Source: Akkermansiaceae bacterium (lineage in GTDB: Bacteria; Verrucomicrobiota; Verrucomicrobiia; Verrucomicrobiales; Akkermansiaceae). Taken from it: DNA of 39,778 nt. The translations under genes were made by a program, and so were the position numbers. This document shows, one piece after another, positions 258 through 39,599 of this stretch. Numbering within the stretch: position 1 is the stretch's first letter; the number at the start of each line of letters is the position of its first letter. The stretch covers positions 1 through 39,778 of the forward strand of contig JAPKDJ010000034.1 in the NCBI GenBank assembly GCA_026421245.1, in the 5' to 3' direction. The notes below the pieces were generated by a model. It searched no databases and was not told the origin of the DNA. It worked only from the letters and a program-made list of their open reading frames with translations.

Positions 258-1373
258 TCACGCCCGGGTCCACTTCGCAACAAAGGCGTTCATTTTTAAC
301 TCTTGGTCTTCAATCGATTTCACCAAGGCAAGCTGCGTCCGACATCGGTCGAGATTGTGACCTTTATGCTGAATTTTAAAGTATTGATCACCTTCCAGAT
401 GGTCGGTAAGGAATCTGATCCCAGTCTCCATCGTAATTACTTTGGCCGAGAAAGGAAGCAACTCAATCTCGAGAGGACTGAGGAAATTCTTGGCGGTTTC
501 GAGGTAGCCTTCAACGATCGCCTCGAACATAGGCAGACGCATTTCGACTTTGGAAACGTCTTTCTCATCCTCCGCAACAGGGCTGGTGGCACCGCGAATC
601 AAATCCCCAAAATCATAAATGGCCAATCCGGGCATGACGGTGTCGAGATCGATCACACAAACCGCTTCGTCGGTCTGAGCATCGATCATGACGTTATTGA
701 GCTTGGTGTCATTATGGGTTACGCGCTCGGAGAGGCGCCCCGCCTTAAGGTGATCCAGAAGCACCGTGGTGATTTCCTGCCGTGAGGTAATGAAGGTAAT
801 TTCATCCTGCACATGATCGACCCGACCGTGCGTGTCTTTTTTGATCGCTTCCATGAGACGCGCGTAGCGCGCCGGGGTGTCGTGGAAATCGGGGATAGTT
901 ACAGAGACTTTTTCCACCGGCAAATCACTCACAAGATCCTGGAAGGCACCAAACGCCTTGGCGGCTTGATAGGCCTGGCGGCTGTTTCCAACAACGTCGT
1001 ATGTACGACAACCCTCGATACAGTTATAGCAGCGCCAAACTCCACCTGCAGGACAGATCACACAGTTCTTCCCGTCCCGACCAGGATAGAGATTCAGGGT
1101 CTGCCCACCAAAGTCATGTTTGTGCCGATAAACCTTCCGATTGATGTGCCGGGTCACGAGCTCGATGTTCTTCATCACCACAAGTGGCTCGGGAAAAACA
1201 TTTTCGTTGATACGCTGGAGAATGTAGCGCTTCGCTTCCCCTTCGTCATCTTCATACGAAGCAAGATAGGTCGTATTGATATGACCACTTTCAATTTCTT
1301 CACCCGCGACAAAGGTGCCATCGATTGCAAACTGGGCCCCAATTTCAGCAATATTTCTAACAAGTTCCGTCAT
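258..1373 (-). CDS. NahK-like N-acetylhexosamine kinase (APH-fold phosphotransferase)
   Basis: 371 residues, close to the usual length of the NahK/'mucin desulfatase' branch of the aminoglycoside-phosphotransferase fold. Visible signatures are an N-terminal nucleotide-binding segment with SGHINTTY (about 29-36), EGCRTYDVV (about 120-128), the catalytic loop THNDTKLNNV (219-228) and the metal-binding IDLDTVMPGL (241-250) followed by YDFGD. Family members phosphorylate GlcNAc or GalNAc at C1 with ATP in the cytoplasm. The start overlaps the stop of the upstream SenB-like gene by 4 bp (ATGA), so the two are translationally coupled. Odd point: four cysteines cluster at about 104-121 (C104, C107, C115, C118). 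The exact sugar substrate cannot be read from sequence; its coupling to a GlcNAc-using enzyme suggests salvage of that sugar (inference). Confidence 0.82.
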   Translation of the reverse strand: MTELVRNIAEIGAQFAIDGTFVAGEEIESGHINTTYLASYEDDEGEAKRYILQRINENVFPEPLVVMKNIELVTRHINRKVYRHKHDFGGQTLNLYPGRDGKNCVICPAGGVWRCYNCIEGCRTYDVVGNSRQAYQAAKAFGAFQDLVSDLPVEKVSVTIPDFHDTPARYARLMEAIKKDTHGRVDHVQDEITFITSRQEITTVLLDHLKAGRLSERVTHNDTKLNNVMIDAQTDEAVCVIDLDTVMPGLAIYDFGDLIRGATSPVAEDEKDVSKVEMRLPMFEAIVEGYLETAKNFLSPLEIELLPFSAKVITMETGIRFLTDHLEGDQYFKIQHKGHNLDRCRTQLALVKSIEDQELKMNAFVAKWTRA

Positions 1374-2332
1374 GAAGATTCATGCTGATAGTTTAGATCC
1401 TTTAACAACTCAAGCCAACATCCGGACTCCTTTTCTCGGGAAAAAAGCGGGAGCCTTTGAGTGGCAAGATGAGCCCAACCTTTCAAATCAACCCGCCTAT
1501 TAATAATCGCCTCGAGAACTTGTTCTAATTTCCCCTCATCAAAATACCCCGGATAACCTTCTCCCAAAAGCCCCTGATTCCCCTCAATTCGACTGGCCAA
1601 AACAGGAACCCCAATCGTCATCGCTTCCAAAATGGCATTTGCCCCTCCTTCAAGAACCGAACTGTTGACTGTGAGAGAACTCATCGCCATGAGCTGGAGA
1701 GCTTCCTCACGGGGCAGTCCGCCAAACCACCGAAAACGGGGATCCTTTTGAGCCCACTTTCCCGCAACTCTACGGGAACTTTCGTCCAAGGCCTCTCCGA
1801 TTTGCCAAACTTCCACGTCATTCCATGCGGGGTTCTTTGCGACGGCTTCAATGGTTAGAAACGGCCTTTTCACCGGGCGCGGATGCCCCACAACCGAGAT
1901 CGCAAACGGAGGCACCACGGGATTTGCCCTAATCCCCATGGGATCAAGGCTGTTTGGAACCACCACCGCCTTTTCCTGAAAAGCCTCGGGCAACCGTGCG
2001 ATTGCCGCTTCCTGAACCACCACAATTCGGTCTGCCTCCCTGAGCGCGCGGTTCCCCACTTCGGAACCTCTCGGAAGACTTTCGTAGAGATCCGTCCCCG
2101 TGATCAAAACAATTACGAGCCCATTCGCAACCTTGGCCCGGTAATCGAAGATTGCCGGTGCCCCCTTCACCGCATGAAGAGAGATCAACACATCTGCGGG
2201 ACAATCGTCATAGAGATGGGAAGCTCGGGCCTCAATCCCCCCCTCCCGAAGAATGCTCACGATCCGTCTGGTCGTGACACTATTCCCCTTTAGCTCGGAG
2301 AGCGGGTAAGGCGAAGCAACGCAAACCTTCAT
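1370..2332 (-). CDS. senB: SenB-like selenosugar glycosyltransferase (GT-B, group 1)
   Basis: 320 residues. It matches the SenB family rather than a generic glycosyltransferase: an N-terminal GNSVTTRRI loop, PADVLISLHA, the ITGTDLY signature (about 77-83), then a C-terminal GT-B half with EGGANAILEA (228-237), GVPVLAS and GNQGLLGEGYPGYF (251-264). SenB enzymes transfer N-acetylhexosamine from a UDP-sugar onto selenophosphate to make a selenosugar for selenoneine synthesis (established for proteobacterial SenABC). Four-base overlaps on both sides, with cysS upstream and the NahK-like kinase downstream, place it in the middle of an operon. No SelD/SenC selenophosphate synthetase is adjacent. 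If selenium specificity is wrong, a thiosugar-forming glycosyltransferase is the nearest alternative. Confidence 0.78.
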   Translation of the reverse strand: MKVCVASPYPLSELKGNSVTTRRIVSILREGGIEARASHLYDDCPADVLISLHAVKGAPAIFDYRAKVANGLVIVLITGTDLYESLPRGSEVGNRALREADRIVVVQEAAIARLPEAFQEKAVVVPNSLDPMGIRANPVVPPFAISVVGHPRPVKRPFLTIEAVAKNPAWNDVEVWQIGEALDESSRRVAGKWAQKDPRFRWFGGLPREEALQLMAMSSLTVNSSVLEGGANAILEAMTIGVPVLASRIEGNQGLLGEGYPGYFDEGKLEQVLEAIINRRVDLKGWAHLATQRLPLFSREKESGCWLELLKDLNYQHESS

Positions 2333-3693
2333 GACGGCACAACTTCGTAGCCCTCTCGTCCATCCTTAACGACCCAGCCTTTTCCGGCCAACTCATCACG
2401 ATAACGGTCGGACGCCTCCCAGTCCTTACCTTGGCGCGCCTCCCATCGAAGCTTCGCCAGTTCGGCAATCTCGTCAGGCACTTCAACTCCCTCCGGTTCA
2501 GGCAAGGTCAATCCAAGAGCCGTAAGAACGGAAAAGAAACCCCGCCAATCAGCCTCGCTTGAGGCCTTCTTAAGATTTCCAAAAAGCTCCCCAAGTGCTG
2601 CAGCCGTATTGAGATCTTCATTGAGTTTCTCAAACGCTCCCGCAAAGATTCCCAAATCGCCACTTTTCGCGAGTTCACGATACCCCGGAGAAGCTTGCCC
2701 GGCGGCAGCTTTTGCCAACTTGGACAGTGCCTCCCTCGCTGCATGCAGCGACTCCATGGTAAAGTTCAGTTGCTTCCGGTAGTTCGCCCCGATCAGCACG
2801 TAGCGAACTTCCATCGCCGACCACCCCTCTTCAGCGAGGTCTCCGAGTGTGTAAAGAGTCCCACTCGACTTCGCCATCTTCTTCCCGTTCACGAGAAGGT
2901 GGGTCGAGTGAAACCAATGACGCGCAAACTCCCCTCCGCACGAGCACTTGGACTGCGCCAATTCATTCTCGTGGTGAGGAAAAACGAGATCCTCTCCCCC
3001 ACTGTGCAGGTCGAAAGTCGTTCCCAGATATTTCAGAATCATCGCCGAGCACTCGAGATGCCACCCGGGCCTTCCCTGCCCCCACGGACTCTCCCAATAA
3101 TTCTCTCCGTCCTCGTCCCGGCGGGCCTTCCACAGCACAAAATCCGCGACATTGTCTTTCTCATACTCGTCCGTGTTCGCGCGCTCATTCTGCGTCTTTC
3201 CAAGATCAAGTTCCCTCGTATCCAAACGCGACAACTTTCCATACTCCGGGAAAGATGAGATTTTAAAATAAACCGAGCCGTCCTCCGAGGCATAGGCATG
3301 CCCCTTTTCGAGCAATTCCTCAATCATCGAAATCTGCTCCGGCACATGTTTCACCGCACTCGGCTCAACGTGCGGTTCCAAGCAGTTCAGGGCCTCGCAA
3401 TCCTCGTGAAACTTGTCCCGCCACTGTGCGGTAAAATCCTCGAGCGTCCGTCCTGCCGCCACTGAGTCACGGATCGTTTTGTCATCAACATCCGTGATAT
3501 TACGCACATGCTTAGTCTTCATCCCACCCAACTCGAGAACCCGACGCAAAACATCCTGAATCACAAACGTCCGGAAATTTCCGATATGGGCGGGGCCGTA
3601 AACCGTGGGCCCGCAGCAGTAAAACCGGAAAGATTTCCCATCAACCGGTTCCAGCGCAACAACCTCACGTCTCAGTGTGTCAAACAACCTCAC
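2329..3693 (-). CDS. cysS: Cysteinyl-tRNA synthetase
   Basis: Class I aminoacyl-tRNA synthetase that charges tRNA-Cys in the cytoplasm. Signatures: CCGPTVYGPAHIGN carrying the HIGH-type motif near the N-terminus, RNITDVDDK, GRPGWHLECSAM, FPHHENE (zinc and cysteine site) and KMAKSSG (KMSKS-type) about 275 residues in. The C-terminal DALR-like and anticodon-binding part is complete, giving 454 residues, normal for CysS. I use GTG 3693 because VRLFDTLRR is where the family normally begins. The frame stays open to GTG 3768, but that start would leave only 9 bp before the divergent gene at 3778, too little for a promoter. It is first in the minus-strand group with senB and the kinase. Full length argues against the MshC paralogue of mycothiol synthesis. 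Confidence 0.95.
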   Translation of the reverse strand: MRLFDTLRREVVALEPVDGKSFRFYCCGPTVYGPAHIGNFRTFVIQDVLRRVLELGGMKTKHVRNITDVDDKTIRDSVAAGRTLEDFTAQWRDKFHEDCEALNCLEPHVEPSAVKHVPEQISMIEELLEKGHAYASEDGSVYFKISSFPEYGKLSRLDTRELDLGKTQNERANTDEYEKDNVADFVLWKARRDEDGENYWESPWGQGRPGWHLECSAMILKYLGTTFDLHSGGEDLVFPHHENELAQSKCSCGGEFARHWFHSTHLLVNGKKMAKSSGTLYTLGDLAEEGWSAMEVRYVLIGANYRKQLNFTMESLHAAREALSKLAKAAAGQASPGYRELAKSGDLGIFAGAFEKLNEDLNTAAALGELFGNLKKASSEADWRGFFSVLTALGLTLPEPEGVEVPDEIAELAKLRWEARQGKDWEASDRYRDELAGKGWVVKDGREGYEVVPS

Positions 3694-3777
3694 GCGCGCA
3701 GCATTACCAGCCTCACCGCTGCGGGCAAACGAATTTCCCAAGATTGCGTTAACGGCCTTTTCTGGCACAATACTCCC

Positions 3778-9039: not shown

Positions 9040-9115
9040 TGGTGGCTCATCCCGGAATCGAACCAGGGACACAGGGATTTTCAATCCCCTGCTCTACCAA
9101 CTGAGCTAATGAGCC
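9040..9115 (-). tRNA. tRNA-Phe (anticodon GAA)
   Basis: 76 nt on the minus strand with all four arms. Acceptor stem GGCTCAT pairs with ATGAGCC; the D arm is GCTC ... GAGC; the anticodon stem GGGGA/TCCCT encloses loop TTGAAAA with anticodon GAA; the T arm is CCTGG-TTCGATT-CCGGG. Discriminator base A is followed by a genome-encoded CCA (9042-9040). It has its own promoter at 9138-9166 and a terminator directly downstream. No integrase or repeated tRNA fragment lies nearby, so there is no sign of use as an attachment site. Confidence 0.97.
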
Positions 9116-38276: not shown

Positions 38277-38307
38277 ATGGGACATCGCCGACGCGGGGAT
38301 GCCCCAT
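38277..38307. terminator. Possible bidirectional terminator
   Basis: Between two convergent genes, ATGGGACATC ... GATGCCCCAT forms a 10-position stem with one mismatch. No T-run follows on either side, so it would not be a strong intrinsic terminator. Confidence 0.35.
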
Positions 38308-39599
38308 TAACTTGCACAGGTTCTAAACCCCGTGAAGACATCCGTTCTTCCTGGGAGATAGGCCTGCCGATAGCTATTACGAATGAGGCTGGAGCAGGTC
38401 GCGCACGATCCTCCTTTTGTCACCCGGTGGTCACCGAACTGCAGGACCGACATATAATGATACATGTCGATCTCAAACCCGGCGTAGGGCAGAAACTGGC
38501 TACTCGTCCATTCCCAGGCGGTGCCTAACATTTGCAGGCAGCCTGTCGGACTGGCGCTCTCATCGAAGGCATCCGCCGGGGCCGTGCCAAAAAAGGTTCC
38601 ATCCATGTCCACCTGTGCGGTATCCATGACATCTCCCCCCCAAGGGAAACGGAGCGCTTCCGGGCCACGGGCTGCCGCTTCCCATTCCGCTTCGGTTGGC
38701 AACCGACGTCCGGCCCATCGACAAAAGGCCTCGGCTTCCCAGACACTGACGTGCAAGACTGGGGCATCCAGCGGAAGGTCTTCCCACACATCAAATTTGC
38801 GATGGCGCCACACGCCACTCTCATCACGGCGCCAGTATGCCGGCATCTCACGTTGCCCACCATTCCCCTCCAACAACCAACACTGCCCCCCAAAATCCCA
38901 CACCGATTGATCCCGATAGCCGCCGTCCTCCACAAACTCGAGAAACTCACGATTCGTCACCAGCGTCTTCGCGATTGAAAAAGATCTCAACGTCACCTGA
39001 TGCCCCGGACGTTCACTGTCAAAACTAAATTCTCCTGACGAAAGTGACGGCATCCCGAGGTCGTATTCTCCTCCCTCCACCAGCGCATCTCCCGAAATCC
39101 CGGCACCCTTTGGAAGATCGTCATTCAAGGTCGCGAACGAGGGAGCCGGATATCCCAGAGTCTGCCTCGCCCACAGCAGGGATTCGATGTGCATCTGATG
39201 GTGATGAATGACGTAACGCAGGAGATACCGTTCCTGATCGTTGAGTGACTTCCCGCCAAAACCGGCACGCACCTCATCGAGTACCCCTCGGTAGTAATCG
39301 AGCATCGTTCCCTTGTCAGGCACGACTCCGGGTCTCCAGCGATGCTTGTGTCCGATCTCAAAGGAATCCCAGACATCATCGTATCCGGGCATCCGGGCCT
39401 CTTTTTCGCCGAGCTTACGAAGTAGAAAATATTCATAGAAAAAGGCCGCATGTCCCAGTTCCCAAATCGGCGGATTGATTCCCCGTAAATATGGCGCCGC
39501 GAGCCGGGCATCATCGAGATCATCCAACAAGGCGCGGGACTTCCGGTCTACCACGTCGAGTTCAATCATCATCTCCTCTCCCGTATTCATCAGTGACAC
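38307..39599 (-). CDS. SenA/EgtB-like nonheme iron sulfoxide or selenoxide synthase
   Basis: 430 residues in two domains. The DinB-like N-terminal domain supplies iron ligands His50 (WELGHAAFF), His133 and His137 (IHHHQMHIES), the spacing known from EgtB. The C-terminal FGE-sulfatase-like domain has SFSIAKTLVTNREFLEFV, AFCRWAGRRLPTEAEWEAAA, GTAWEWTSSQFLPY, and the end HRVTKGGSCA...LIRNSYRQAYLP...GFRTCA. The WARQTLGYPAP segment and the C-terminal end resemble the SenA group (selenoneine synthase) more than classical EgtB, which uses gamma-Glu-Cys or Cys with hercynine. The substrate therefore may be a selenosugar. ATG 39599 is the annotated start; ATG 39590 is an alternative. Confidence 0.78.
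   Translation of the reverse strand: MSLMNTGEEMMIELDVVDRKSRALLDDLDDARLAAPYLRGINPPIWELGHAAFFYEYFLLRKLGEKEARMPGYDDVWDSFEIGHKHRWRPGVVPDKGTMLDYYRGVLDEVRAGFGGKSLNDQERYLLRYVIHHHQMHIESLLWARQTLGYPAPSFATLNDDLPKGAGISGDALVEGGEYDLGMPSLSSGEFSFDSERPGHQVTLRSFSIAKTLVTNREFLEFVEDGGYRDQSVWDFGGQCWLLEGNGGQREMPAYWRRDESGVWRHRKFDVWEDLPLDAPVLHVSVWEAEAFCRWAGRRLPTEAEWEAAARGPEALRFPWGGDVMDTAQVDMDGTFFGTAPADAFDESASPTGCLQMLGTAWEWTSSQFLPYAGFEIDMYHYMSVLQFGDHRVTKGGSCATCSSLIRNSYRQAYLPGRTDVFTGFRTCAS

Follow-up and report, generated by a model that had tools for sequence, protein, structure and literature searches.

The window, a whole contig of 39778 nt, carries on its minus strand three genes in immediate succession. A senB-like open reading frame of 320 aa (1370-2332(-)), annotated as a Se-glycosyltransferase (selenosugar synthase) from its profile, predicted fold, active-site residues and co-occurrence, lies between an upstream gene for cysteine--tRNA ligase, cysS (2329-3768(-); TIGR00435, 404.4 bits, cut-off 340), and a downstream gene of the phosphotransferase family, nahK (258-1373(-)), whose product resembles N-acetylhexosamine 1-kinase. 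Both joints are 4-nt overlaps (ATGA), one of the cysS stop with the start of senB and the other of the senB stop with the start of nahK. At the other end, 36 kb from senB, an open reading frame encodes a 430-aa OvsA-like selenoxide synthase of the SenA/EgtB superfamily (38307-39599(-); best match PDB 8u41), beginning 179 nt from the contig end. The only Rfam match in the window at the gathering threshold is a tRNA-Phe (GAA) at 9040-9115(-). The original prediction, made from the sequence, had placed the senB-like frame at exactly these coordinates, and all three motifs that it quoted are present; it had also assumed a verrucomicrobial source, and the nearest named relatives are indeed Verrucomicrobiales and Akkermansiaceae MAGs. 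Overall, its observation was partly confirmed and its interpretation partly supported.

In profile searches, the best family for the senB-like frame was TIGR04348 (SenB; 233.8 bits, 2.4e-69), and the match was full length, spanning residues 3-311 of the frame and positions 1-309 of 310 in the profile, while the second-ranked family scored 116.8 bits. Because the score lies under the curated equivalog cut-off of 300 bits, in a group that spans 332-187 bits and in which 16 of 189 genomes of the order pass, we use the label SenB-like. Other TIGR04348 matches in the window's own genome had 31.8 bits or less, and the order-wide search separated a SenB group of at least 186.7 bits from other GT4 genes of at most 75.7 bits, counting the senB of genome G135, which is divided between two contigs (198 + 99 bits), as one gene. 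The top sequence matches in the PDB were the SenB entries 8k5u/8jjq (RsSenB 126.5 bits, VpSenB 120 bits). The AlphaFold2 model, based on an alignment of 26 sequences of the order, had a pLDDT of 93.3, and when it was compared with the PDB using Foldseek, ranks 1-15 were all SenB (E 8e-25 to 4e-21, TM ~0.80-0.90). The nearest non-SenB folds were BshA, which came next after the SenB chains at 1.6e-14, and MshA. A general GT4 enzyme was rejected by the profile score, the score gap within the genome and the Foldseek ranking.

Roles in catalysis, donor binding and the selenophosphate pocket are assigned to residues of VpSenB in PMC10891094. N20, T23, H58, T83, T85, R155, K158, E231 and E239 of VpSenB correspond to N17, T20, H53, T78, T80, R152, K155, E228 and E236 of the window SenB. 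The catalytic and donor residues (K158, N20, T23, E231 and E239) are thereby all retained, and so is the selenophosphate pocket, with the sole exception of R61, which is replaced by Lys. The equivalents of N20, D86, R155, K158, E231 and E239 were invariant in 121/121 aligned SenB-like sequences, these being the 124 sequences of the tree described below after removal of three outgroups; the Arg/Lys pair R155/K158 belongs to a motif common among other GT4 enzymes. Q131, which contacts the sugar C4', is Gln in all 22 examined SenB proteins adjoining SenA or OvsA, but is Asn in the window SenB and variable within its clade, and this variability may reflect a different sugar. H235, also a C4' contact, is Asn in the window SenB as well as in 11 of 12 SenA-adjacent SenB. 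The window gene is likely, with good confidence, to encode a SenB-like enzyme, and its product is predicted very probably to make a selenium-containing sugar. The original call of a SenB-type rather than a general GT4 protein is thus backed by profile, fold and active-site residues, at a score below the curated cut-off. Compared with the SenB of the sen cluster (Variovorax paradoxus; TIGR04348; PDB 8jjn/8fbx, RsSenB 8k5u), the window protein is alike in fold, length and the residues of the UDP-sugar and selenophosphate pockets, and co-occurs like it with selenophosphate synthetase, whereas it is 29-33% identical in structure alignment, has Asn at the Q131 and H235 equivalents, and is encoded beside cysS and nahK in place of senA and senC.

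The order cysS-senB-nahK was retained in 15/15 related loci (L104-L118; SenB 56-82% identical). The cysS/senB overlap was exactly 4 nt in 14 of them, and the difference in the remaining one, L110, stems from an earlier start taken by the ORF picker; the spacing between senB and nahK varied, the extremes being an overlap of 23 nt and a gap of 14 nt. The kinase aligned with NahK (PDB 4wh1/4ocj) over residues 6-367, nearly its full length, at 273.6 bits, and its activity is predicted from this similarity. Known NahK is encoded in a bifidobacterial lacto-N-biose operon, whereas the gene here overlaps a senB-like gene. The coupling of senB to cysS and a sugar kinase, as first described, therefore holds in its adjacency, with the kinase now specified as N-acetylhexosamine 1-kinase-like. 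The idea of a distinct genomic setting also holds insofar as the locus is unlike senABC, although SenB-like genes as such are not special to this genome, occurring in 52/189 genomes of the order in many settings.

A cysS gene beside a GT4 gene recalls MshC and MshA, and a CysS-like ligase, a GT4 enzyme and a sugar kinase could together make a cysteinyl-sugar, that is, a thiol cofactor similar to mycothiol or bacillithiol, with no part for selenium. While BshA and MshA are also the closest non-SenB folds, the ligase passes the cysS cut-off and fails that of MshC (256 vs 485), and the window SenB reaches 20.2 bits against the BshA profile, whose cut-off is 273.7. Furthermore, SenB relatives elsewhere adjoin other genes entirely, and a thiol cofactor would leave the correlation with SelD given below unexplained. 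We regard this explanation as extremely improbable.

The original prediction stated that neither SenA nor SenC accompanies senB, which is correct for the immediate neighbours, cysS and nahK, but not for the absence of a partner, because the gene at 38307-39599(-) belongs to the SenA superfamily. Elsewhere in the order, the genes that follow senB likewise encode SenA-superfamily proteins in the four cases tested. When the 189 genomes of the order were searched with an alignment of 10 of these senB-adjacent proteins, 15 genomes scored above 600 bits, the window included (match 38310-39590(-)). The window protein matched OvsA (8u41) at 412.3 bits, compared with 187.6 for EgtB and ~154.5 for SenA (8k5i). 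Its best NCBIfam model was NF041186 (SenA), at 407.4 bits and under the cut-off of 420. In alignments, OvsA 8u41 differs from the variant 8ux5 by Met to Tyr and by Gln-Ala to Asn-Phe, and the window protein shows YMS and RQA at its active site, which is the OvsA type and not the SenA-type RN[FY] (usually with YS). The verrucomicrobial proteins have Met in 15/15 and Gln-Ala in all 14 that reach that site, in contrast with 19 comparison proteins of other phyla, which all have RN[FY] and none of which has Met. Based on the best match together with the OvsA-type Met and Gln-Ala, we assigned the protein to the OvsA type rather than to SenA. An OvsA-type enzyme is said, from the work of Kayrouz and colleagues, to form the C-Se bond onto histidine, and ovoselenol is completed by an N-methyltransferase.

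The genome from which the window derives (G000; 4.3 Mb, 192 contigs, 93.5% complete) encodes SelD outside the window (387.8 bits), with an in-frame TGA at the position that Cys or Sec usually occupies in SelD, and it also carries selA and selU. The selenophosphate synthetase for which the original prediction had asked the genome to be checked is hence present, while the hercynine-forming EgtD named along with it gave no match to PF10017 at E 0.001, for which an assembly gap at this level of completeness is possible. At E 1e-20, EgtD was absent from 26/26 verrucomicrobial genomes among the 50 SenB genomes tested, and was found in 19 of the 24 non-verrucomicrobial ones at 197-379 bits. Across the order, 6/189 genomes exceeded the Pfam EgtD cut-off of 23 bits, at 23-68 bits, and one of these has SenB (G150, 28.7 bits). 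Since the SenA-superfamily enzyme of the window is OvsA-like and OvsA acts on histidine, the missing EgtD speaks against selenoneine and not against SenB.

An ordinary selenoneine pathway, in which SenB works with the SenA-superfamily protein and hercynine is imported or supplied by an unrecognised methyltransferase, would agree with the presence of SenB and SelD and with NF041186 as the best NCBIfam model of the putative partner. It does not agree with an OvsA-type active site, which the 19 proteins of other phyla do not share, nor with the lack of EgtD hits in this and the 26 verrucomicrobial genomes and the weakness of the six matches in the order, and we consider it very unlikely. Compared with selenoneine, an ovoselenol-type pathway encoded by scattered genes is the more probable reading. 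Selenoneine loci from Acidobacteria (L163), Nitrospinae (L155) and Planctomycetota (L166) share the SenB family with the window, but they have SenA-type residues and egtD, neither of which was found in the window's genome; SelD was found in the genomes of L163 and L166 and not for L155. A separate SenC was rejected as a candidate, as no genome of the order had more than one SelD match over the cut-off except G161 (two genes) and G178 (two fragments).

To see how far SenB follows selenium genes, we compared their distributions. Full-length SenB-like genes were present in 52/189 genomes of the order and SelD in 62/189, and SelD occurred in 52/52 genomes with SenB compared with 10/137 without it. 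SelA was found in 51/52 SenB genomes, a count that takes in a fragment under the cut-off (G124), and SelU in 49/52, including three fragments under the cut-off in G043. At the genus level, all 18 genera with SenB have SelD, which is found in 22 genera in total, and SenB was present in 0/21 genera lacking SelD. Within genus g11 (n=27), 18 genomes have both SenB and SelD, three have SelD only and six have neither. Fisher values for such counts disregard shared ancestry, and the genus counts and the pattern within g11 are the safer form. Among SenB genomes from several phyla, SelD was present in 47/50; the SelD and EgtD counts across phyla cover 50 of 79 fetched loci and the OvsA search 32 of 79. 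The fetched loci overlap with the order sample, in which L106 and L118 appear as G166 and G134. Two of the 15 MAGs of the window clade gave no SelD, one of which has OvsA. Each of the 15 genomes of the order with OvsA also has SenB, as would be expected if OvsA needs a selenosugar, and the two genes share a contig in 13 of these genomes and lie side by side in 12.

On the other hand, OvsA was not found in 37/52 SenB genomes of the order, 27 of which are at least 90% complete. In the window clade, three of 15 relatives have OvsA, and none was found in the other 12, which share the gene order and include the closest relative, L104 (SenB 82% identical); it was not found in G166, of the same genus as the window, either. 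The link between SenB and OvsA in the window clade is thus loose, and part of the absences may be assembly gaps. Rubritalea marina, Rubritalea profundi and Persicirhabdus sediminis also have senB and no OvsA that we could find. The five non-verrucomicrobial SenB genomes in which EgtD was not found are all Planctomycetota, and in G216, the sole one of them searched for SenA/OvsA, the best match had 97.5 bits.

In the tree, senB of the window fell in a different subclade from the senB genes beside ovsA, with bootstrap values not settled and the root unsure. The tree comprised 48 of 51 fetched neighbourhoods of the order, the window, 70 of 79 named loci, two plasmid genes and three outgroups; omitted were the senB genes of G005, G138 and G104, missed by the ORF picker, the split gene of G135, eight named loci without a called senB and one short piece. 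The outgroup consisted of three GT4 genes of the window's own genome. As its branches were very long (8.6-10 changes per column) and one outgroup fell inside SenB, the outgroup root was not used.

These distributions bear on the possibility that SenB never feeds OvsA, so that the end product, for storage, transport or detoxification, would be the selenosugar itself or a HexNAc derivative on which NahK acts, with OvsA sporadically acquired and drawing on another selenium source. The constant cysS-senB-nahK order in 15/15 relatives with OvsA in 3/15, the 27 SenB genomes of at least 90% completeness without OvsA and the separate subclade of the window senB are all consistent with it, yet it would not account for SenB in 15/15 OvsA genomes or for the shared contigs and adjoining genes just described, and we judge it rather unlikely. 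We favour, with reasonable though not strong confidence, the joint statement that this genome has a SenB-type enzyme and an ovoselenol-type route.

From the genes, overlaps, residues and co-occurrences observed, we infer substrates, products and a role for the kinase. SelD of the genome would make selenophosphate. SenB would attach this to a UDP-sugar at its anomeric carbon, and loss of the phosphate would give a 1-selenosugar; the likeliest UDP-sugar is a UDP-N-acetylhexosamine. From this selenosugar the OvsA-like enzyme, whose gene lies 36 kb away, could place selenium on histidine. Together these would be the initial committed steps of a pathway of the ovoselenol type, with dispersed genes rather than one cluster. 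For the OvsA/ovoselenol pathway (PDB 8u41, 8ux5; Kayrouz et al. 2024, Nat Chem 16:1868, cited as reference 21 in PMC13188914), the likeness lies in the best match and active-site residues of the window protein and in the EgtD that was not found, and the difference in the distance between ovsA and senB. Because 12/15 relatives keep cysS-senB-nahK with no OvsA found, SenB must have a use without OvsA. In such genomes the selenosugar may itself be the product or pass to another partner, and in the relatives concerned it could store or carry selenium or be the form in which selenium is exported. The adjacency of nahK to senB points to a HexNAc as the sugar, which the kinase would supply or recycle as HexNAc-1-phosphate, where GlcNAc-1-P or GalNAc-1-P feeds or recovers the UDP-sugar; this step is the least secure of the mechanism.

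SenB is characterised from betaproteobacterial selenoneine clusters only in the literature consulted (PMC10891094, in part). In a non-exhaustive literature search on SenB, selenosugars/selenoneine, ovoselenol and TIGR04348, we found no report of these verrucomicrobial genes. What appears new is an orphan SenB in Sec-decoding Verrucomicrobiota, which in one clade adjoins a gene for a HexNAc kinase. Its tie to SelD across an order without convincing EgtD suggests that a minority of genomes carry out ovoselenol-type chemistry and that the selenosugar has another fate in the majority. We propose, quite tentatively, that Verrucomicrobiota that decode Sec, and perhaps some Planctomycetota as well, use SenB and SelD without SenA, OvsA or EgtD to make a 1-seleno-N-acetylhexosamine as a store, carrier or excreted form of selenium, and that the HexNAc 1-kinase of the Akkermansiaceae clade closes a sugar cycle around this compound. 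If true, SenB would here serve a purpose other than the synthesis of antioxidants derived from histidine. Selenium leaves the animal body in the form of selenosugars, which would give a bacterial end product of this kind wider interest.

Several other arrangements were seen around senB. In several g11 genomes senB is divergent from selD/selA with a phosphonate-type ABC transporter beyond, and L038, L044, L045, L049, L056 and other g11 loci form a selenium island in which senB-ovsA is divergent from selD-selA, with the transporter and in some cases selB; the transporter binding protein of L038 belongs to TIGR04553 (putative 'selenate' type). SelD of G023, G043, G130, G098, G101, G152, G039 and G161 lies in open frames of 749-806 aa without TGA and is probably fused to another domain, and G161 additionally has an ordinary TGA-containing SelD. 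Of the two senB genes in G101 (L070, L053), one accompanies ovsA and the other lies behind a spermidine-synthase-like gene (the gene tested was that of the related locus L069). A rhodanese-like ORF, named by eye, is divergent to ovsA in L100 (5118-6206) and L206 (7095-8132). In G138 (L021, about 2520-2630), the ORF behind senB ends in an OvsA-like C-terminus only, as a remnant or through an assembly break. In the Rubritalea-type loci L119 (7823-8992), L123, L126, L131 and L133, senB lies behind metX (homoserine O-acetyltransferase; 365 bits in L119, where it was tested, cut-off 331). The distance between the two genes is about 830 nt in L131 and no more than about 75 nt in the other four loci. 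In the Poribacteria loci L137, L153 and L172, selD directly precedes senB and a SenA-type gene is located elsewhere in the genome, and in G211, the sole one of these Poribacteria genomes tested for EgtD, the SenA-type gene is beside egtD.
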